Origin: Chloroflexia bacterium | GTDB taxonomy: Bacteria > Chloroflexota > Chloroflexia > QHBQ01 > JADMIH01 | Reading direction: 5' to 3' | Length of the DNA: 8,441 nt | Assembly (NCBI GenBank): GCA_025927935.1 | Contig: JAICKM010000279.1 | Span: 1-8,441, forward strand | Shown here: piece after piece, positions 1 to 8,441 of the stretch | Layout of the letters: the number at the start of each line of letters is the position of its first letter | Position numbering within the stretch: position 1 is the stretch's first letter | Notes under the pieces: model-generated | Databases searched by the model: none | The model's input: only the letters and a program-made list of their open reading frames with translations | Told to the model about the DNA's origin: nothing | Program-made: the position numbers and the translations under genes

Positions 1-2232
1 CATCATATCCAGGCCGAGCAGCAACGCCTTCTCATAGTGGTAGGCCAGCAAGTCACAGAACTCATCGACCCGGTCGCCCGCCTTGACCTCGATCCAGGAG
101 GCCACCCGCGCGTGTTCCTCGCCGCGCAGGGCCTTGGGCACGCTGATATAGGTCACGTCGCGAGTCAGCAGGTTGCGGAAACTATACTCGCGCTCGCCCG
201 CGAAGACGGGGCCGTTCCGTTCGACAATAAACTCACGCCGCTCCAGGTAGCGCAGCGACTCGGCGATGCCGGCAGGCGGCACCTGCGGGAACATCTCGCC
301 CAACGCCCCGGCCCAGAAGACGCGCCCCACCACGGAAGCGCCCTGCAACAGTCGCTTCTCGCCTTCCGGCAGGTCGTCCACCCGCGCGCCCACCAGGGCT
401 TGCACCGTGTCGGGGATATGCAGCGTCTCGACCGCCGCCACCAGCTTCCACTCGCCGTCCCGCTGCACGATCACCTGGGCGTCGATCAGCATGCGGATGA
501 TCTCTTCAAGGAAGAAGGGATTGCCCTCGGTTTTCGCCATGACCAGGTCGAGGAACGCGGCGGGCAGATCGGCGTCGGCCAGCAGATCGCGGACCAGGTG
601 GCGGCTGTGGTCCTCGCTCAGCGGCCCAATTGTAAGCTGGGTAAAGGCCGGGGCCGCCCGCGAGCGTGCGATCCACGCCTGGCCCGCGCCGCTCTCCCAC
701 AGCGCCGGGCGGGCCAGCGTGACGATCAAGATCGGATGATCGGGCAGCGTCTCACGCAGGTACTCGATAAATTCGAGCATGCTCTGGTCGGCCCATTGCA
801 AGTCTTCGACGGCCAGCACCAGCGGCGCCGCTTCGGCCTGGCGCGCGAAGAAACAGCGCAGCGACCAGAAGATCTCCGTGCGCACGGTATCCGGCTCGAC
901 ATCGACCGCGCGCAGCCCCAGCATGATGCCCAGCCAGTGGGCCACCACCTCGGCCTCCGAGGCCCCGGCCACCGCCCGGCGCACCAGCCGGCCAATCGGA
1001 TCGGCGGGGTCGCCCACGGATAGATCGCGGCCATCCGCCTGATCCACCACGACCCGCACGCCGGCCAGCAGTTTCTCGGCGGCGACCGGGCGCGGATCGT
1101 CGTCCAGGATGCCGCACTGCGCCTTGAGCATCTCGCCCAGGGCGCGGAACCCGGCGCCGGGGCCGTAGGGCTGCGCCCGGCCCTTGCGGAACGCGGGCGC
1201 CTGCGGCAAGCCGGACAGATACTTCTCCAATTCCCAGAGCAGACGCGACTTGCCGATCCCCGCCGGTCCCAGCAGCAAGACGTGATGCAGCCGCCGGTCG
1301 CGCACGACCTGGCCGTAGAGGTGCTTGAGTTGCGCGAATTCGGCGTCCCGGCCCACCAACCGGCTCTCGCGCCCGGTCAGGCGGCGGGCCTCCCCGCGGC
1401 GTGTGCGCACGTTGACCACTTCCCAGGCCGAGACGGGCTGCTCTTTGCCACGCACCTGCACATGGCCCCGCGAACGGTACTCGATCATGGCGTTGCTGGC
1501 CCGATAAGTCGCCTCGCCCACGACGATCTCGCCCGGCCCGGCGGTATGCTGGAGCCGCGCGGCCAGGTTTACAGGATCGCCCATGACCGTGTAGTCGATG
1601 TCCCGGCCCGCGGCCATGCGCCCGGCCAGCACTTCGCCGGTGTTGATGCCGATATGCAATTGCAGATCAATGCCGCGTGTCCGCTCCAGGTCGGCGCTGA
1701 GTTGGCGCATGGCGTGCTGCATCTCGATGGCACAGCGCACGGCGCGCTCCGGGTCGTCTTCGTGGGCGCGCGGGGCACCAAAGAGGGCCATGATGTTGTC
1801 GCCCAGGAATTTATCGACGTGGCCCTCGTAGCGCTCCACTTCGGCGGCCAGGCGGCGTAGCGTCAGGTCCATCACATGCTTGACTTCTTCGGGGTCCAGC
1901 CGCTCGGCCATGGTGGTGAAGCCCGAGATGTCGCCGAACAGGATAGTGACGACTTTGCGCTCGTCGATGGTCGGCACCAGGCGAGCCAACCCGCTCACCC
2001 CCGGCGGCTCGGCGGCGCCCCCCCCGCTCGTGCCCGCCGCGGGATCGATCCGGGCGGGCGCGGCGGCGGCCCCGACAAACAGGGCGCTGCCGCACTGGCC
2101 GCAGAAGCGCATCCCGGCGGCGTTGAGGAAGCTGCACACCGGGCAATCCAGGGGCACCGCCAGCCGCGCGCCACATTGGCCGCAGAAGCGCATCCCCGGC
2201 ACGTTCATGAAGTTACAGGATGGACATTGCAT
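1..2232 (-). CDS. Zinc-ribbon / class III adenylate cyclase / AAA ATPase signalling protein (C-terminus outside window)
   Basis: The frame is open for 744 codons from an ATG at 2232 to the window edge, so the C-terminus is missing. Two zinc ribbons open the protein (Cys3/Cys6 with Cys17/Cys20, then Cys30/Cys33 with Cys44/Cys47). A class III nucleotidyl cyclase domain follows at about residues 90-275. Its metal aspartates are Asp101 (FGDISGFT) and Asp145 (KFLGD), the purine-binding lysine is Lys141, and the transition-state residues are Asn222 and Arg226 (VNLAAR). Thr215 sits where many cyclases have Asp; the Lys/Thr pair is typical of class IIIb enzymes that make cAMP from ATP, as in soluble adenylyl cyclase. 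A P-loop (GPAGIGKS, 322-329) and Walker B (LVLAVEDLQWAD, 471-482) define an AAA/STAND ATPase, and TEGNPFFLEE (568-577) is usual in this group. TPR repeats commonly follow but would lie outside. I chose the first ATG because it keeps Cys3/Cys6. No Shine-Dalgarno is visible; heptamer repeats lie directly upstream. The protein is probably a cytosolic cAMP-signalling regulator; its input signal is unknown. Confidence 0.93.
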   Translation of the reverse strand, partial: MQCPSCNFMNVPGMRFCGQCGARLAVPLDCPVCSFLNAAGMRFCGQCGSALFVGAAAAPARIDPAAGTSGGGAAEPPGVSGLARLVPTIDERKVVTILFGDISGFTTMAERLDPEEVKHVMDLTLRRLAAEVERYEGHVDKFLGDNIMALFGAPRAHEDDPERAVRCAIEMQHAMRQLSADLERTRGIDLQLHIGINTGEVLAGRMAAGRDIDYTVMGDPVNLAARLQHTAGPGEIVVGEATYRASNAMIEYRSRGHVQVRGKEQPVSAWEVVNVRTRRGEARRLTGRESRLVGRDAEFAQLKHLYGQVVRDRRLHHVLLLGPAGIGKSRLLWELEKYLSGLPQAPAFRKGRAQPYGPGAGFRALGEMLKAQCGILDDDPRPVAAEKLLAGVRVVVDQADGRDLSVGDPADPIGRLVRRAVAGASEAEVVAHWLGIMLGLRAVDVEPDTVRTEIFWSLRCFFARQAEAAPLVLAVEDLQWADQSMLEFIEYLRETLPDHPILIVTLARPALWESGAGQAWIARSRAAPAFTQLTIGPLSEDHSRHLVRDLLADADLPAAFLDLVMAKTEGNPFFLEEIIRMLIDAQVIVQRDGEWKLVAAVETLHIPDTVQALVGARVDDLPEGEKRLLQGASVVGRVFWAGALGEMFPQVPPAGIAESLRYLERREFIVERNGPVFAGEREYSFRNLLTRDVTYISVPKALRGEEHARVASWIEVKAGDRVDEFCDLLAYHYEKALLLGLDMM

Positions 2233-2268
2233 ACGAGTGCTGAGTGCTGAGTGCTGAGTGCTGAGTGG
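2233..2268. repeat. GAGTGCT heptamer tandem array (left arm of hairpin)
   Basis: Four full copies of GAGTGCT run from 2235 to 2262, followed by a partial fifth (GAGTG). The array abuts the start codon of the cyclase gene. Its first 27 nt (2233-2259) are the exact reverse complement of 2353-2379, so the two arms can pair across a loop of about 93 nt. Heptamer tandem repeats between genes are known in several cyanobacteria and filamentous bacteria; a function here is not established. Confidence 0.9.
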
Positions 2269-2274
2269 CGACGG

Positions 2275-2317
2275 GTGACGAGTGTTGCGTATGGAGTGGA
2301 GACGAGTGACGAGTGTT
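2275..2317. repeat. Direct repeat of GTGACGAGTGTT
   Basis: The 12-mer GTGACGAGTGTT occurs at 2275-2286 and again at 2306-2317, inside the loop of the larger heptamer hairpin. A shorter inverted match, GAGACGAGT (2299-2307) against ACTCGTCTC (2333-2341), could form a nested stem. These words share GAGTG with the flanking heptamers, which suggests the whole 146-nt region grew by duplication and drift of one unit. No coding or conserved regulatory motif was recognised here. Confidence 0.75.
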
Positions 2318-2352
2318 ATCCGCTGACCGGCTACTCGTCTCTCTCCGTCTCT

Positions 2353-2379
2353 ACTCAGCACTCAGCACTCAGCACTCGT
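2353..2379. repeat. Inverted copy of the heptamer array (right arm of hairpin)
   Basis: ACTC followed by three AGCACTC units and GT. It is the exact reverse complement of 2233-2259 and reaches into the last base of the SpoVR stop codon (2379-2381 on the minus strand). A transcript continuing from spoVR toward the cyclase gene would fold it into a 27-bp stem. There is no T-run after the stem, so a classical intrinsic terminator is not supported, although attenuation, RNA stabilisation or processing remain possible. Confidence 0.88.
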
Positions 2380-5024
2380 CACAGTTCCGTGCGGGTGTTC
2401 TTCGTGCCGTCATACGAGAGCAGTACCCGGTCGCCTTCAACGATGGTTTCCAGATGCACCGGGCGCCCCCAGATCTGGTACATGTATTGCAAGGTCTTCT
2501 CGGCATACACCGTGTCGAGATCGCGGCCCTCGTGGCGATGGACCAGGTAGAGTTCGCGGCTGCGGCGATAATCCCCATCTTCCACCAGGATGGTCGGATT
2601 GCCGAAGTTGGTCATCTCGTTCAGCAGGCCGTCGCGGACTTTCTCCCAGTCTTTCTCCACGATCACCCACTCGTTGCCGTGACGTTCGTACAGATAGAGA
2701 TCGAGTTCGTCTACCAGCTCTTTGGTCAGATAGTTGCGCAGGAACGAGAGATCATTGTCCAGTTCGCGCACCTCGAAGATCTTGGCCCGTCCCTGGCCCG
2801 GTTGCGCGCCCCGCGCCTGTTGTTCCTGCGTCGGATGGTCCCAGCGGCGCTCGATATCCTCGAACAGCTTCAAGCCCAGGTGATACGGGTTGATGCTGCG
2901 CCGGTGCGGCGCCACGACCCCGGCGTTCAGATTGGCAAACTCCATCACCTCGTCGTCGGTCAACTCCAGTTCGCGCATGATGCGCGCGTGCCAGAAGGAG
3001 TTGTGGTTGACAAAGCCGTTCGCCACATAGCTGTGTTTGCTCTCAACCGTAATGTCGTACACGTCGTCCCAGCCCGACTCGATAGCCACGATGCGATCCG
3101 TGGTGTCTTCGCGCTTGAAGCGGGACCGCGCCTCGACGTAGTGGCGCAGGGCAACTTGTTTGCGCGGGAGCGCGAAGCCGATCTCGGCCAGGAACCGCGC
3201 GGCGGACGCGCCGGTGACTTCCAGGTGCGTGCAGCCGTCCCGCTTCGGGCGCTGGGTGGACAGGATGCCGTAGTTCAGGAGGATGATCTGCACGCCGCGG
3301 ATCAGCGATTCGCTGCTGGACACCAGGCGGATGCCTTCCGCTCCGGCGTAGGCGTCGGCGTCGAAGTAGCCGCGCAAGAAGGCCGACATCACCGGCTTGG
3401 GCGAACGCAAGATGGTGGGCGGGATCGCCTTGGCGGGCGCTTTGGCCTGGGGGTCGATACCCAGGCCGGTCAGCCAGTCCAGCAGGTCACGGGAATGGAC
3501 GTTAATCCGCCAGCGCCCGCCGGCCGCGGTGGCGTCCCAGACCGCAGTCGGGGTTAGGCCCAGCGTGGCCGGGATGAGCGCCAGCAACTCCTCGCGCAGG
3601 TCCGCATCGCCGGTGGTGAAGCAAATCCCCGACTTCGTCCAGTTGCCGTCACCGATGAAGTAGCCCAGGAGCCAGGCCATATCCGCGCCAAGAGTCTGGG
3701 GCACCTGCAAGGTGGATCGGGTCGGTCGCACTTTCCCGGTCATGCCTTGCTGATAGCCGGTCGTCTCCAGCACCCGCGCGATGGTTTCGCCGTTCTCCGT
3801 GCGCCGGCCCTGCATATGACGCATCACCGTCCAGACCGACACTCCGGCCTCCGCCGCGACGGTCGTCAGAGTCGTGCTGGGCACCGCTTGGACGAAGCCG
3901 CAGGGTTGTTCGGTCGCGGGCCAGATATCGGCGCCCGCGTCGAGGGTCACCCGGTCGCCGATCTGCAGGTCGCACAGGGGCGCCCAGCTACCATCGGCCA
4001 GCCGCAGACGATGCTGGTGGGCGCCCTCAATCGAGAGGCCGCGCCGGGTGCGGATGCGGATGGTCGGCACCATCCGCTCGCAGTGGTGATCGGTGATGGA
4101 ATAGAGTTGCCCGGCGCCGCCCGCGGCGACGCGCATGTTGTCACGCGCGGCATAGACCTGGTCAAAGCGCATAAAGCCCCGCTCGGTCAAGAGCAGCGAG
4201 TCGCCGGTCGCGCAGGCCCAGCCCTCGTTCATGATCTTGGTCTGCATCTGGGGCACGAAATAGAGCATCTCCTGGCGCACAATGTCGAGCACGTCGCGCT
4301 GCCAGTCGGCGAGATCGGGCGCGTGCTCGATGAGGAAGCGCATGATGTCCTTTTCGGGTTCCGCCGGGATGCGGGTGGGGAGCAGGCTGGCTTTTTCCTT
4401 TTCCCGCGCGACGCGCTCGCGTTCCGTCGCGGCGTCCTCGCCCAAGTCCCACAGGTCCTCGAAGCCGCTGCTGGGGGCGCGGCGCGGCTCGCGCGGCTCA
4501 TCGCTATTGGCGCCCCGGCGGAAACGCAAATGGGGGTCGATATGTTCCTGAATGGACAAGGCGGCATCCAGGAACACTTCGACGGCGTGCGTGCCGTACA
4601 GGAACTCGTACTTGCGGATGCGCTCGGCATGGAGGCTCGTCGTGTCCACCATGGAGCGGTTGGTGCGGTCGAAGTAGGCGTTATGCTTGAAGAAGTCGGT
4701 ATGGCCGAGCACGTGGGCGATGACCAGCTTGTTCTGCAGCACCGTGTTGGCCTCCATGAGGAAGGCAAACGACGGGTTCGAGTTGATCACCATCTCGTAG
4801 ATTTTGCTGAGGCCGTAATCGTACTGGGTCTTCATGCGGTAATAGCCCTTACCGAAGGACCAGTGCGAGAAGCGACCGGGCAGGCCATAGGCGCCGAACT
4901 CGTACATGATCGTCGCCGGGACGAGCTCGAAGTGGGTGGGAAACGGGTCCAGGTCGAAGCGCCGGGCGAGATCCCAGATCTCGGTCATGGCTGCTTCGAG
5001 CGCGCCGATCATTTCGGTGTCCAT
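2379..5024 (-). CDS. spoVR: SpoVR family protein interrupted by an intein
   Basis: This 881-residue precursor is a SpoVR/YcgB-family protein with a 405-residue intein (residues 271-675). Removing it leaves 476 residues, a normal length for the family. The N-extein has the family's early region (HFELVPATIMYEFGAYG from 31), the His-x3-His motif AHVLGH (103-108) and MNEGWA (265-270). The C-extein resumes with SFWHARIM (676-683) and continues through NPYHLGLKLFEDIERRWD and KNTRTEL at the end. Named for a spore cortex role in Bacillus subtilis, SpoVR also occurs in non-sporulating bacteria with YhbH/YeaH and PrkA, where its biochemistry is unclear; the HxxxH plus NEGWA pattern suggests a metal site, which is inference. 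The ATG at 5024 is preceded by AGGA at 5032-5035, seven nt away, and lies 13 nt after yhbH, so the two are probably one operon. Activity should depend on splicing. Confidence 0.95.
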   Translation of the reverse strand: MDTEMIGALEAAMTEIWDLARRFDLDPFPTHFELVPATIMYEFGAYGLPGRFSHWSFGKGYYRMKTQYDYGLSKIYEMVINSNPSFAFLMEANTVLQNKLVIAHVLGHTDFFKHNAYFDRTNRSMVDTTSLHAERIRKYEFLYGTHAVEVFLDAALSIQEHIDPHLRFRRGANSDEPREPRRAPSSGFEDLWDLGEDAATERERVAREKEKASLLPTRIPAEPEKDIMRFLIEHAPDLADWQRDVLDIVRQEMLYFVPQMQTKIMNEGWACATGDSLLLTERGFMRFDQVYAARDNMRVAAGGAGQLYSITDHHCERMVPTIRIRTRRGLSIEGAHQHRLRLADGSWAPLCDLQIGDRVTLDAGADIWPATEQPCGFVQAVPSTTLTTVAAEAGVSVWTVMRHMQGRRTENGETIARVLETTGYQQGMTGKVRPTRSTLQVPQTLGADMAWLLGYFIGDGNWTKSGICFTTGDADLREELLALIPATLGLTPTAVWDATAAGGRWRINVHSRDLLDWLTGLGIDPQAKAPAKAIPPTILRSPKPVMSAFLRGYFDADAYAGAEGIRLVSSSESLIRGVQIILLNYGILSTQRPKRDGCTHLEVTGASAARFLAEIGFALPRKQVALRHYVEARSRFKREDTTDRIVAIESGWDDVYDITVESKHSYVANGFVNHNSFWHARIMRELELTDDEVMEFANLNAGVVAPHRRSINPYHLGLKLFEDIERRWDHPTQEQQARGAQPGQGRAKIFEVRELDNDLSFLRNYLTKELVDELDLYLYERHGNEWVIVEKDWEKVRDGLLNEMTNFGNPTILVEDGDYRRSRELYLVHRHEGRDLDTVYAEKTLQYMYQIWGRPVHLETIVEGDRVLLSYDGTKNTRTEL
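3000..4214 (-). other. Intein with LAGLIDADG (DOD) homing endonuclease and LacI-like HTH insert, in SpoVR
   Basis: The intein begins at Cys271 (block A, CATGDSLLLTERG) and ends VNHN at Asn675, with Ser676 as the +1 nucleophile; His674 is the penultimate histidine. Block B is GLSIEGAHQHRLRL with His338, but its usual Thr is Ala335. Block F is VYDITVESKHSYVANG with Asp657 and His664. The endonuclease has block C LLGYFIGDG (452-460, Asp459), block D KAIPPTI (Lys532), block E LRGYFDADA (550-558, Asp557) and a block H-like SESLIRGVQIILLNYGI. Both catalytic aspartates are present, so the enzyme looks intact. Residues 384-427 (3744-3875), between splicing and endonuclease regions, read as a LacI-type helix-turn-helix with AAEAGVSVWTVMRHMQG. 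Base composition looks like that of the exteins by eye. Splicing would be standard class 1 (Cys1, Asn/Ser). Homing activity is inferred from motifs only. Confidence 0.95.
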
Positions 5025-5037: not shown

Positions 5038-6234
5038 CTACGGCGTGGCTGCCTGGCGCTCGGTAAAAAACTTTTTGAGCGCCGGGTAGACTTCCTTCTT
5101 GTCGCTAATGGTCACCGCGACGAACTTCGGGTCGCGGATCTTGTTGTAGGCCGACATCAGCGTGCTGGTCGAGCCGCGGTAGCCCTCGCGGATTTCGCCG
5201 TAGCCGAAGAGGTTGCAGACGGCCATCAGCTTGTTGACCAGTTGCACGCAGAGGTCGTTGTCCCAGGGCAGGTTGTCGCCGTCCGAGAAATGGAAGGGAT
5301 AGATGTTCCACTCGCTGGGCGGGAAGCGCTCGTTGATAATATGCAAGGCCAGGTCGTAGGCCGACGAGACCTGGGTGCCGCCACTTTCGCCGCGGTGGAA
5401 GAACTCTTCCTCGGTGACTTCCTTGGCCTCGGTATGGTGGCTGATGAAGACGATGCGCACGTTCTGGTACTTGGTCCGCAGGAAGCGCACCATCCAGAAG
5501 TAGAACGACCGGGCGATGTATTTCTCGAACTCGCCCATGGACCCCGAAACGTCCATCATGGCTATCACGACGGCGTTGGACTGGTACTCGATGCGCTGGT
5601 CCCAGGTCTTGAAGCGCAGATCGTCGGGCAGCACGTCGTGGAAGTGGGGATCGCCCTTCGCGGCGTTGCGTTTGATGTTCTCTTTGATGGTGCGCCGTTT
5701 GTCGAGGTTGGGCAAGATGCCGTTGCGGCGAATATCGACAAACTGGACGGCTTCGGTTTCCAGCTCTTGCTGGCGCTTTTCGGCCAGGTTGGGCAGGCCC
5801 AGGTCCTGGAAGATCATGGCCGCCAGTTCGTCGATACTGATCTCGGCCTCGTAGTAGTCGGTGCCGGGGCTGTCGCCCGCTTCGCCCGGCCCCTGGCCGG
5901 GCCGGCCCTTGCCGCGCGGATTGCCGGCCTGGCCGATCACGTCGCCCACCTGCGAGTCGCCGTCCCCGGCGCCCGTGTGTTTGCCGCTGGAGTAATCGAA
6001 GCGGAAGCGATACTCGTCGAGCGAGCGGATCGGCACCTTGATCGTCTTTTGCCCGTCGGACAGGATGATGCTTTCCTCGCTGACGATCTGGCCGAGGTTT
6101 TTGCGCACCGCCTCCTTGATTTTCTCCTGGTGGCGTTGCTGGTCGGCCGGCCCCTTGCGGTGCAGCGACCAGTCGTGCTGCCCGATCGACATCATCGGCA
6201 GGCGGGATTCGGGTTGTTGCTCGTCATTCGCCAT
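5038..6234 (-). CDS. yhbH: YhbH/YeaH family (DUF444, UPF0229) protein with vWA-like domain
   Basis: This 398-residue protein matches the YhbH/YeaH (DUF444) family in length and layout. The N-terminus has the basic, Gln-rich RHQEKIKEAVRKNLGQIVSEESIILSDGQKTIKVPIRSLDEYRFRFD segment spread over residues 34-80 in family order. A Gly/Pro/Asp-rich linker follows (84-125). A von Willebrand A-type domain starts near 220, with the MIDAS motif DVSGSM at 228-233, Thr287 in SGGTQVSSAYDLA and Asp318 in HFSDGD. No signal peptide or membrane segment is visible, so it is cytosolic. In known operons YhbH/YeaH lies between PrkA kinase (YeaG) and SpoVR (YcgB) and is linked to sporulation or stationary-phase stress; its direct role is poorly defined. 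The ATG at 6234 follows AAGGA at 6243-6247 with eight nt spacing. spoVR follows 13 nt downstream. prkA is not found upstream within the window. Confidence 0.94.
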   Translation of the reverse strand: MANDEQQPESRLPMMSIGQHDWSLHRKGPADQQRHQEKIKEAVRKNLGQIVSEESIILSDGQKTIKVPIRSLDEYRFRFDYSSGKHTGAGDGDSQVGDVIGQAGNPRGKGRPGQGPGEAGDSPGTDYYEAEISIDELAAMIFQDLGLPNLAEKRQQELETEAVQFVDIRRNGILPNLDKRRTIKENIKRNAAKGDPHFHDVLPDDLRFKTWDQRIEYQSNAVVIAMMDVSGSMGEFEKYIARSFYFWMVRFLRTKYQNVRIVFISHHTEAKEVTEEEFFHRGESGGTQVSSAYDLALHIINERFPPSEWNIYPFHFSDGDNLPWDNDLCVQLVNKLMAVCNLFGYGEIREGYRGSTSTLMSAYNKIRDPKFVAVTISDKKEVYPALKKFFTERQAATP

Positions 6235-6397: not shown

Positions 6398-6456
6398 GGT
6401 GCCATAAGGATCACCTACTCGGTTCGTACCCTTGCCTACGGAGGTTGCCGCCCGCC

Positions 6457-7083
6457 ATGATTGCTCGCTACCAACACCTGCGCCGTTACCCCCAGGTTTT
6501 CTTGGCCATGACCGGCCTGCGCGTGGCCGAGTTCGACCGTTTGGCGCAGGACGTCCTGCCGCGCTATGCGCAGGCCGAAACCCAGCGCCATCAGGCCATC
6601 CCCCTGCCCCGGGGCGCGAGCCGGGCGCGCCGCCGGGCCATCGGCGCCGGTCACCCCTTCACCCTCGCCCGCCGCGACCATCTGCTGCTGACCGTCATTT
6701 GGTTGCGCCTCTATCCCACCAATGAGGTGCTGGCCTATCTCTTCGGCATCTCCGACAGTACCGTCTCGCGGCTGCTGGCGCGCCTGCTGCCCCTGTTGGC
6801 GGCGGCGGGACAGGATACGATGCGCATGCCCGACCCCAGACGCAAGCATCGCCGGCAACTGGACGAGTTGCTGCGCGATCTGCCCGAGTGGGGCGTGGTC
6901 ATTGATAGCTTTGAGCAGCCCGTGCAACGCCCGGCCGGCCGCCACGGCGCCACGCCGAGCGAGGGCGGCGCCGCAGCCCCCGCGGACGGGGCGCCGGGGG
7001 CCGCCGCCCCCCGCCGAAGAAGGCCGATCGCTGGTATTCGGGCAAGAAGAAACGCCATACCATCAAGAGTCAGATCGCCGTGA
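6457..7083 (+). CDS. IS transposase N-terminal part (OrfA-like), frameshifted from its C-terminal part
   Basis: This 208-codon frame holds the N-terminal half of a DDE transposase. It has a helix-turn-helix region at about 86-116 (YPTNEVLAYLFGISDSTVSRLLARLLPLLA) and the first catalytic Asp at 150 in VVIDSFEQPVQRP. After residue 159 the protein runs into an Ala/Gly/Pro/Arg-rich stretch unlike any family domain and stops at 7083. The start at 6457 is chosen because the neighbouring transposase begins in the same way (M-I-x-R-Y-x-x-LRRYP-x-VFL); an in-frame TTG at 6445 touches the GGAGG and is less likely. The rest of the enzyme continues in the -1 frame. Either a programmed -1 frameshift makes a fusion protein, as in some IS5-family elements, or the gene is broken. 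Alone this product lacks two of the three catalytic acids. Confidence 0.75.
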   Translation: MIARYQHLRRYPQVFLAMTGLRVAEFDRLAQDVLPRYAQAETQRHQAIPLPRGASRARRRAIGAGHPFTLARRDHLLLTVIWLRLYPTNEVLAYLFGISDSTVSRLLARLLPLLAAAGQDTMRMPDPRRKHRRQLDELLRDLPEWGVVIDSFEQPVQRPAGRHGATPSEGGAAAPADGAPGAAAPRRRRPIAGIRARRNAIPSRVRSP

Positions 7084-7520
7084 ACCGCCACAGCGGGGAG
7101 ATTGTGGACGTGGCCGAGAGTGTGCCGGGGCCGACGGCCGCTATCACCTTGCTCAAGGAGTCGGACCTGTTGCGCCGCGTGCCGGAGGGCGTGAGCGCCG
7201 AAGGGGACTTGGCCTATGTGGGCATGGGCAAGGCACCCCCGCAGGGCTTGGGCTATACGCCCCGGCGCAAGCCACGGGGCAAAGACAAGCACCGCCCGCG
7301 CGGGCAGGACCAGGAGCAGCCGGCGGCGGACAAGGCGTACAACCAGGCGTTCGCCCAGAGCCGCATTATCGTGGAGCACACGATTGGGCGGGTGCGGCGC
7401 TACCAAGCAGTGACGGCGCCGGATCGGCACCATCGCCAGGGCCACACCGCCCGGGTGCGGGCGATCGCCGGCTTGGTGAACCGGCAGCTTGCGGCGCGAC
7501 TGCCCTACATGGTCCATTAA
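7080..7520 (+). CDS. IS transposase C-terminal catalytic part (OrfB-like), -1 frame relative to the N-terminal part
   Basis: The frame is open from 6915 to 7520. Similarity to the neighbouring intact transposase resumes about 7017 (KKADRWYSGKKKRHTIKSQIAV), upstream of the GTG at 7080, which is the first possible internal start and is therefore unlikely to be the true one. The second catalytic acid lies in GDLAYVG and the third in IIVEHTIGRVRRYQAV, with the family segment TPRRKPRGKDKHRPRG between. The reading ends with LPYMVH at 7520, followed by a small stem (7534-7541 with 7547-7554) before the right IS end. It is best read as the second half of one transposase. Function needs a frameshift between 6915 and 7083; otherwise this is a pseudogene. 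Confidence 0.72.
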   Translation: MNRHSGEIVDVAESVPGPTAAITLLKESDLLRRVPEGVSAEGDLAYVGMGKAPPQGLGYTPRRKPRGKDKHRPRGQDQEQPAADKAYNQAFAQSRIIVEHTIGRVRRYQAVTAPDRHHRQGHTARVRAIAGLVNRQLAARLPYMVH

Positions 7521-7622: not shown

Positions 7623-8441
7623 ATGATTACACGTTACGACAACCTGCGCCGCTACCCAGCGGTGTTCCTCTCGCTCACCGGCTTGCATGTCGCCGAGTTT
7701 GACCGCCTGGTGCCCGGTGTCGCGCCCCACTGGGCCGCCGCCGAACTCGCGCGCCATGCCTTGGCCCTCACGCCCGCCGGGGATTTGCAGCCCCGCCGCC
7801 GCGCCATCGGCGGTCCTAGCTACGAATTGGCCTTCCGCGACCAACTGCTGCTGGCCGTCGTGTGGCTGCGCGTCTATCCCACCCAGGAAGTCCTCGGCTT
7901 CCTGGGTGGCGTCTCCGACTCCACCGCCGGGCGCCTCGTCAGCCGCCTGGTGCCCGTGCTGGCCGCAGTCGGCAAGGACGGCATGCGCATGCCCGATCCC
8001 GGGCGCAAGCATCGCCGCACCCTCGATACGCTACTGGCCGAACTGCCCCAACTCGGGGTCGTTATCGACAGCTTCGAGCAACCGGTGCAGCGCCCGCGCC
8101 AGCGCCGCGAAGCGGACACGTGGTACTCCGGCAAGAAGAAGCGCCACACCATCAAGAGCCAACTCGCCGTGGACCGCCACAGCGGTGAGATTGTCGAGGT
8201 CGGCCCCAGCGTCAAAGGGCCGACGGCTGACATCACCTTACTCAAAGACTCGGGCATCTTGGACCGCTTGCCGCGCGGGGTGAGCGCCGCAGGCGACCTG
8301 GCCTACGTGGGCCTCGCCAAGCTGCACCCGGAGGGGCTGGGTTTCACGCCCCGGCGCAAGCCGCGCGGCAAGGACAAGCACCGCGAGCGCGGGACCGACA
8401 AAGCGCAACCCCCGGAAGACCAAGCCTACAATCGGGCGTTC
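7623..8441 (+). CDS. DDE transposase of a second, related IS (C-terminus outside window)
   Basis: The frame is open for 273 codons from the ATG at 7623 to the window end. It is a homologue of the split transposase in the IS before it, with well over half of residues alike by eye, so it is a related element and not a copy. Visible are the N-terminal MITRYDNLRRYPAVFLSLTGLHVAEFDRL region, an HTH at about 85-115, the first catalytic Asp149 (VVIDSFEQPVQRP), YSGKKKRHTIKSQLAV (168-183), the second Asp225 (GDLAYVG) and TPRRKPRGKDKHRERG. The final Glu region (VEHTIGRVR in the neighbour) lies beyond the window. Only 24 nt separate the QRP and WYSG motifs here, against 98 nt in the first copy, and no frameshift is needed. 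The left end of this element probably lies between 7578 and 7585; the right end is not in view. Confidence 0.9.
   Translation, partial: MITRYDNLRRYPAVFLSLTGLHVAEFDRLVPGVAPHWAAAELARHALALTPAGDLQPRRRAIGGPSYELAFRDQLLLAVVWLRVYPTQEVLGFLGGVSDSTAGRLVSRLVPVLAAVGKDGMRMPDPGRKHRRTLDTLLAELPQLGVVIDSFEQPVQRPRQRREADTWYSGKKKRHTIKSQLAVDRHSGEIVEVGPSVKGPTADITLLKDSGILDRLPRGVSAAGDLAYVGLAKLHPEGLGFTPRRKPRGKDKHRERGTDKAQPPEDQAYNRAF

Follow-up and report, generated by a model that had tools for sequence, protein, structure and literature searches.

The 8,441-nucleotide stretch of DNA from a member of the Chloroflexia that was analyzed here, referred to as the window, raises the question why a full-size intein should reside in SpoVR, a protein of unknown chemistry, and what it does there. 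As judged from its sequence, the SpoVR intein is very probably a mobile, self-excising class-1 homing element located in invariant active-site codons. The larger result lies beyond the window: SpoVR, YhbH, and PrkA are all intein hosts, and their genes are adjacent in the operons examined. The element is ordinary in kind and unusual in place, representing a new intein host module. In the available part of a review, intein hosts are placed in DNA replication, recombination, and repair (PMC5874633). A stress/sporulation module is thus added to a range of hosts familiar mainly from replication and repair. The suggestion made in a preliminary description of this DNA, that SpoVR is an unusual kind of intein host, is supported.

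The SpoVR precursor gene (N-extein, intein, C-extein) occupies 2379..5024 on the minus strand and is an ORF of 881 amino acids. It matches PF04293 (SpoVR) in two stretches, the best being residues 8-275 (whole-protein E 1.7e-141), as well as PF24755 (SpoVR_C). The intein of 405 amino acids (3000..4214, minus strand; precursor residues 271-675) was identified from its Cys1 and HN/S junctions (the slash marks the splice point), its relatives, and its fold. NEGWA (4215..4229, minus strand) forms the last five residues of the N-extein, and its N, E, G, and A are invariant in 64 aligned SpoVR proteins. The C-extein starts with SFWH (2988..2999, minus strand), of which the Ser would be the +1 nucleophile and the His is invariant in 64/64 intein-free relatives. 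The splice residues C271 (Cys1), H674, N675, and S676 (+1) are the terminal residues of a class-1 intein, and the joined exteins would form a SpoVR of 476 amino acids. The preliminary description had placed a full-size intein at the NEGWA/SFWH site, and its coordinates, 405 residues, Cys1 and Asn405, +1 Ser, and predicted 476-residue product are exact according to the ORF and the junctions; profiles and relatives bear out the identification. In Pfam, the precursor scores 73.8 bits against LAGLIDADG_3 (PF14528; cut-off 22.5) and 29.6 bits against Intein_splicing (PF14890), which is under the cut-off of 35.8. Third-position GC is 0.86 in the intein and 0.88 and 0.81 in the exteins, a similarity that gives no hint of a foreign origin of the insert.

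The C-terminal splicing region, including HN/S, was recognized at 2997..3065 (minus strand) with NCBIfam TIGR01443 (intein_Cterm; 31.2 bits, cut-off 15.6). Two LAGLIDADG motifs are present on the same strand, LLGYFIGDGN (3642..3671) and LRGYFDADAYA (3345..3377), the latter supported by the LAGLIDADG_3 match. Their catalytic acids, D189 and D287 of the intein, are kept in 99/100 and 97/100 aligned inteins, respectively, the alignment comprising the 100 of 121 rows that could be parsed (20 of the other 21 read NEGWAC, and P0089 was without an N junction). A LacI-like helix-turn-helix (3765..3872, minus strand; residues 385-420; PF00356, E 0.0059, under cut-off) coincides with helices 386-393, 397-404, and 412-422 in the precursor model and is perhaps part of DNA recognition. 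In block B, the pattern A/S/T, two residues, His was matched in 142/142 SpoVR inteins; the Thr position is Ala in the window's intein and in 127 of these 142. A Thr is usual at this position in class-1 inteins, yet it is not defining. The patterns used to extract SpoVR, PrkA, and YhbH inteins required Cys1, a penultimate His, and a fixed +1 residue; the 100 % conservation of Cys and His is therefore by construction, while the Asn as last residue is a finding.

The precursor as modeled with AlphaFold (pLDDT 83.5, pTM 0.52) contains the Hint fold, with TliVMA (7qsu) as the best match among intein structures (Foldseek E 1.3e-18), and PI-PfuI and PI-SceI were matched too. As in these class-1 LAGLIDADG VMA inteins, the splicing fold is split by a two-motif endonuclease and is bounded by Cys1 and HN/Ser. 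Unlike the VMA inteins, the element has SpoVR as its host and carries the weakly matched LacI-like helix-turn-helix before the endonuclease, and most SpoVR inteins have Ala at the block-B TxxH position. Residues 267-270, directly before the N junction, have a pLDDT below 50. When an intein-free relative is modeled, the equivalent stretch lies within one continuous helix, 253-270, and the insert consequently breaks that helix. The precursor with its intein would, on this modeling, be inactive.

The preliminary description had also suggested that the interrupted motif is at a catalytic or metal site, perhaps together with AHVLGH (residues 103-108; 4701..4718, minus strand, coordinates reckoned from the ORF). 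The HxxxH of the latter would provide two metal ligands and the Glu of NEGWA a third. This suggestion gains from the observation that 64/64 aligned intein-free SpoVR proteins share H103, H107, E257, and H264 (numbered as in the relative L015) and from a gluzincin-like model, of which the match is moderate. The best structural matches of the SpoVR model are gluzincin zinc peptidases, a putative likeness in overall fold. The sequence profile match between the two is very weak (probability 3.7%; the M1 sequences used were those of the 8 of 24 fetched loci with the full motif). No fold was assigned to SpoVR by Foldseek on its own, and a sequence search of the PDB returned one weak match only, to a LolA chain (E 0.011). 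Gluzincin metallopeptidases (M1 LTA4H, M32, M2, M61) are characterized by HExxH and a downstream Glu, whereas SpoVR has HVxxH: 64/64 aligned proteins have both His of AHVLGH as well as the Val that follows the first His. As Val replaces the catalytic Glu in all of them, SpoVR was not filed as a gluzincin member but as fold-like only. The NEGWA helix probably belongs to a metal site, and we propose for SpoVR a gluzincin-like site that is composed of HVxxH and NEGWA and lacks the catalytic Glu typical of gluzincins.

The rarity initially attributed to the SpoVR intein is not borne out. With the intein as query, 502 protein matches were obtained at E <= 0.001, and each of the 120 listed is a SpoVR protein with both PF04293 and PF14528, which excludes chance for the pairing. 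Where the source names an organism among the rows viewed, it is Pyrinomonadaceae, Blastocatellia, or Acidobacteria. The same site was occupied in 8 of the best 80 of 207 loci of a species collection, a nonrandom sample; by their labels, these are two Armatimonadetes, one Thermosporothrix, one Bipolaricaulota, and four Sandaracinaceae/Polyangia/Deltaproteobacteria. Within the class of Thermosporothrix, which we take to be Ktedonobacteria, 14/45 genomes with SpoVR (47 searched) have the site occupied, the intein region being frame-broken in G303 and split over contigs in G304. The corresponding figure for Blastocatellia, the class of L028, is 4/44 (98 genomes searched), with a possible fifth case (G330) in which only the N part is visible. 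Any match was found in 16 of 247 Acidobacteriota genomes and a strong full-length match in three. Viral SpoVR-like genes (L188-L197, H16, H17, and H26-H28) are present on viral contigs, in Thermus phages, and in uncultured phages of very large size; in one of them, L191, the +1 residue is Cys. The 18 viral SpoVR loci include 11 that reach the intein site, as judged by motif or by length of the match, none of which has the intein, and seven that consist of an N-terminal piece only. Among the matches listed for plasmids (15 of 80) and phages (15 of 19), none had one place covering 80% of the SpoVR precursor, a result with which a diverged or partial carrier would be compatible.

The preliminary description had allowed for the insert being both common and already described. 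Many SpoVR carriers indeed exist; a description of an intein in SpoVR ("stage V sporulation protein") was not found in the literature searched, and a listing is possible in subscription papers or supplementary tables, which lay outside it. Among the matches listed in this literature, no paper on inteins and PrkA dealt by title with the bacterial PrkA, none combined an intein with DUF444, YhbH, or SpoVR, and a search for inteins in Ktedonobacter matched fungal introns only.

The partner gene yhbH (DUF444; 5038..6234, minus strand; TIGR02877, 552.6 bits, cut-off 467.95) is intein-free in the window, and PrkA is absent from it. The DVSGSM of the window's YhbH (5536-5553, minus strand) is the site that is invaded in relatives; in VWA domains, DxSxS constitutes the MIDAS metal motif. 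Four insertion sites were recognized: NEGWA/S in SpoVR, DVSG/S in YhbH, and two in PrkA. YhbH inteins have the junctions DVSG/C and HN/SM, PrkA site a ends with HN/CDEKFL, and PrkA site b has PSDPK/C and HN/SQD. Site a presumably follows an AAA+ Walker B-like stretch. At least 108 intein-matched PrkA proteins occur among the 120 matches listed (of 135), and at least 115 YhbH/DUF444 proteins among the 120 listed (of 156); the site could be typed in 98/108 PrkA rows, and both junctions could be parsed in 96/115 YhbH rows. We take YcgB, YeaH, and YeaG of E. coli to be SpoVR, YhbH, and PrkA, respectively. In the parts of the papers available, these three are a co-conserved triplet (PMC2375023) and are listed among the hubs in the response of E. 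coli to multiple stresses (PMC9501238).

In the Thermosporothrix class, 15 of the 44 genomes that encode PrkA have inteins in it (10 at site a, 6 at site b, one at both; broken by contig ends in G287 and G302), and YhbH inteins were found in 6/43 (G285 frame-broken, G277 contig-broken). Together, 36 operon inteins, of which some are incomplete owing to frame breaks or contig ends, are present in 26/47 genomes. A general intein C-terminal profile gave 205 matches in the same 47 genomes, a figure counted differently from the 36, and left G303 unmatched. Match spans indicate an insert in DnaB, a classic intein host, in 24 of these 47, so that the genome share of DnaB is similar to that of the stress operon; DnaB is a single replication gene, unlike the three-gene stress module with its four sites. 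Two operons (L149 and L150) carry one intein each in PrkA, YhbH, and SpoVR, a third (L151) has two in PrkA and one in YhbH, and L160, of the Blastocatellia class, has inteins in PrkA and SpoVR. Inteins in PrkA and in SpoVR are present in Thermosporothrix hazakensis too. Several variants were observed. Endonuclease-free mini-inteins of 159-189 amino acids are present at the YhbH site among the parsed rows (P0350, P0351, P0352, P0354, and P0355), and one of 188 amino acids at PrkA site b. In Dictyobacter vulcani (L030:4692-7161), the frame of the YhbH intein breaks in the endonuclease, giving two overlapping ORFs, which may be natural or a sequencing slip. A same-site YhbH intein occurs in a protein named by the source as that of a Promethearchaeota archaeon (P0348), and P0356, P0358, and P0360 combine PF09967, presumably a VWA-like family, with intein domains akin to that of YhbH.

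Intein-free alleles, which the preliminary description had advised looking for in relatives, are present at all four sites. In loci that include overlapping fetches and close relatives, the +1 residue of empty alleles is Ser (77), Thr (14), or Ala (4) in SpoVR; Ser in all 65 loci read in YhbH; Ser (46), Thr (one), or Asp (one) at PrkA site b; and Cys (21), Val (13), Ala (4), Ser (4), Thr (2), or Leu (2) at PrkA site a. Alleles with Ala, Val, or Leu at +1 would be unable to complete splicing and should resist the intein at the protein level. With four sites in three partner proteins, the module is a natural place to test a preference for invariant active sites against regulation.

In the homing reading, spoVR would be translated as the 881-residue precursor, from which Cys1, His404-Asn405, and Ser+1 would excise the intein, joining NEGWA to SFWH to give the 476-residue SpoVR. 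The two-motif LAGLIDADG endonuclease, perhaps with the helix-turn-helix, would cut intein-free spoVR, and repair would copy the intein in. Separate intein lineages would act likewise at the MIDAS motif of YhbH and the two PrkA sites. The SpoVR intein would persist because the codons that it targets specify an invariant helix, which is probably part of a metal site, and the stress operon would be a hot spot because several invariant active-site stretches are located there. Inteins have been reported, in the part of the paper available, to favor conserved sites (PMC2814812). Counting against homing are the persistence of endonuclease-free YhbH inteins, for which a purely selfish cycle would have no use, and the Ala where Thr is usual in block B of the SpoVR intein.

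These mini-inteins would rather fit a conditional switch, in which host-adopted inteins delay maturation of SpoVR, YhbH, and PrkA until a signal such as redox state, zinc, or temperature arrives. Such post-translational control is unlikely. The four sites do interrupt conserved, catalytic-looking stretches, three operons have three inteins each, and zinc is reported, in the accessible text of one study, to block the mycobacterial DnaB intein via its catalytic Cys (PMC7360933); on the other hand, many relatives live without these inteins. Moreover, no co-occurrence beyond chance was seen across the three genes (Fisher p 1.0, 0.37, and 0.65) in the 43 Thermosporothrix-class genomes with all three, a small and, as the genomes are related, rough test; joint occurrence was discarded as a sign of concerted regulation. 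It is even less likely that PrkA-YhbH-SpoVR, where inserted, share a maturation checkpoint, at which up to three proteins of one operon have their active sites completed by splicing under permissive conditions only. Overall, the case for selfish homing into active-site codons is good and that for regulation weak.

Mobility, as the homing reading implies, was assessed with trees and distances. A SpoVR extein tree of 99 hand-picked rows, of which 35 have the intein and 64 lack it, requires 17 changes in intein presence; starred branches force at least 10 of these. The window's extein groups with Chloroflexota (starred branch, 96, with L016). Between the window's group and Acidobacteriota-type rows, labeled so by some source names and by extein-tree placement, median identity is 57.8% for exteins and 60.2% for inteins; toward Thermosporothrix-class rows, these values are 60.1% and 44.0%. 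Within the Acidobacteriota-type rows, they are 75.7% and 62.2%, so that the inteins of the window's group resemble Acidobacteriota-type inteins almost as much as the latter resemble one another, although the exteins are much further apart. These distances and the matched trees comprise 31 hand-picked rows, with L002, L005, L093, L095, and others left out. The disagreement between intein and extein distances is read by us as transfer of the SpoVR intein between phyla, in one direction or the other, the topology tests being indecisive. The intein data did not reject holding together the window's group and the Thermosporothrix-class rows (p-AU 0.058) or the Acidobacteriota-type rows as one clade (p-AU 0.377), nor did the extein data reject the window's group with the Acidobacteriota-type rows (p-AU 0.242). 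The sole topology rejected was the window's group with P0005 on exteins (AU test, p 1.8e-51). A clean topological proof of inter-phylum transfer was abandoned, as vertical alternatives stood unrejected. In the matched trees, the window's group lies on one side of a branch with exteins (83) and inteins (96, starred), and inheritance within the group therefore looks vertical.

In a 112-row intein tree, from which inteins of up to 250 amino acids were dropped, in which the P rows are random, and which carries a long-branch warning, inteins group by site (starred branches: SpoVR 97, YhbH 100, PrkA-b 100; PrkA-a in two parts). P0005 falls with part of the window's group in this tree (starred, 97), the group standing alone in the matched tree (starred, 96). 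The site-wise grouping indicates that the SpoVR, YhbH, and PrkA sites were invaded separately. It disfavors the idea that the hot spot arose by copying between neighboring genes: that an intein in one operon gene spread to its neighbors would agree with three adjacent genes being hosts, but as the inteins do not group by operon this is highly improbable. Least probable of all is a dying insert that neither splices nor homes in a SpoVR pseudogene, for which nothing direct speaks (frame breaks occur elsewhere, in the L030 YhbH intein and the G303 SpoVR intein region), whereas the window's 881-residue frame is open, with splice residues and endonuclease Asp intact, as is that of the nearest relative, P0002 (extein 93.3% and intein 86.4% identical).

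An intein-bearing PhoH was noted in the genome of Chloracidobacterium sp. UBA7656 (L089:598-3549). In the window itself, positions 1-2361 (minus strand) encode an adenylate/guanylate cyclase and AAA_16 protein with double zinc ribbons, resembling TOMM kinase/cyclase fusions below the cut-off of that model. Upstream of yhbH, two neighboring transposase-like genes are located on the plus strand. The first (6445-7520) consists of two overlapping ORFs, and the second (7623-8441; DDE_Tnp_4, weak IS5 match) is cut by the window end; the two are 74-79% identical in two stretches.
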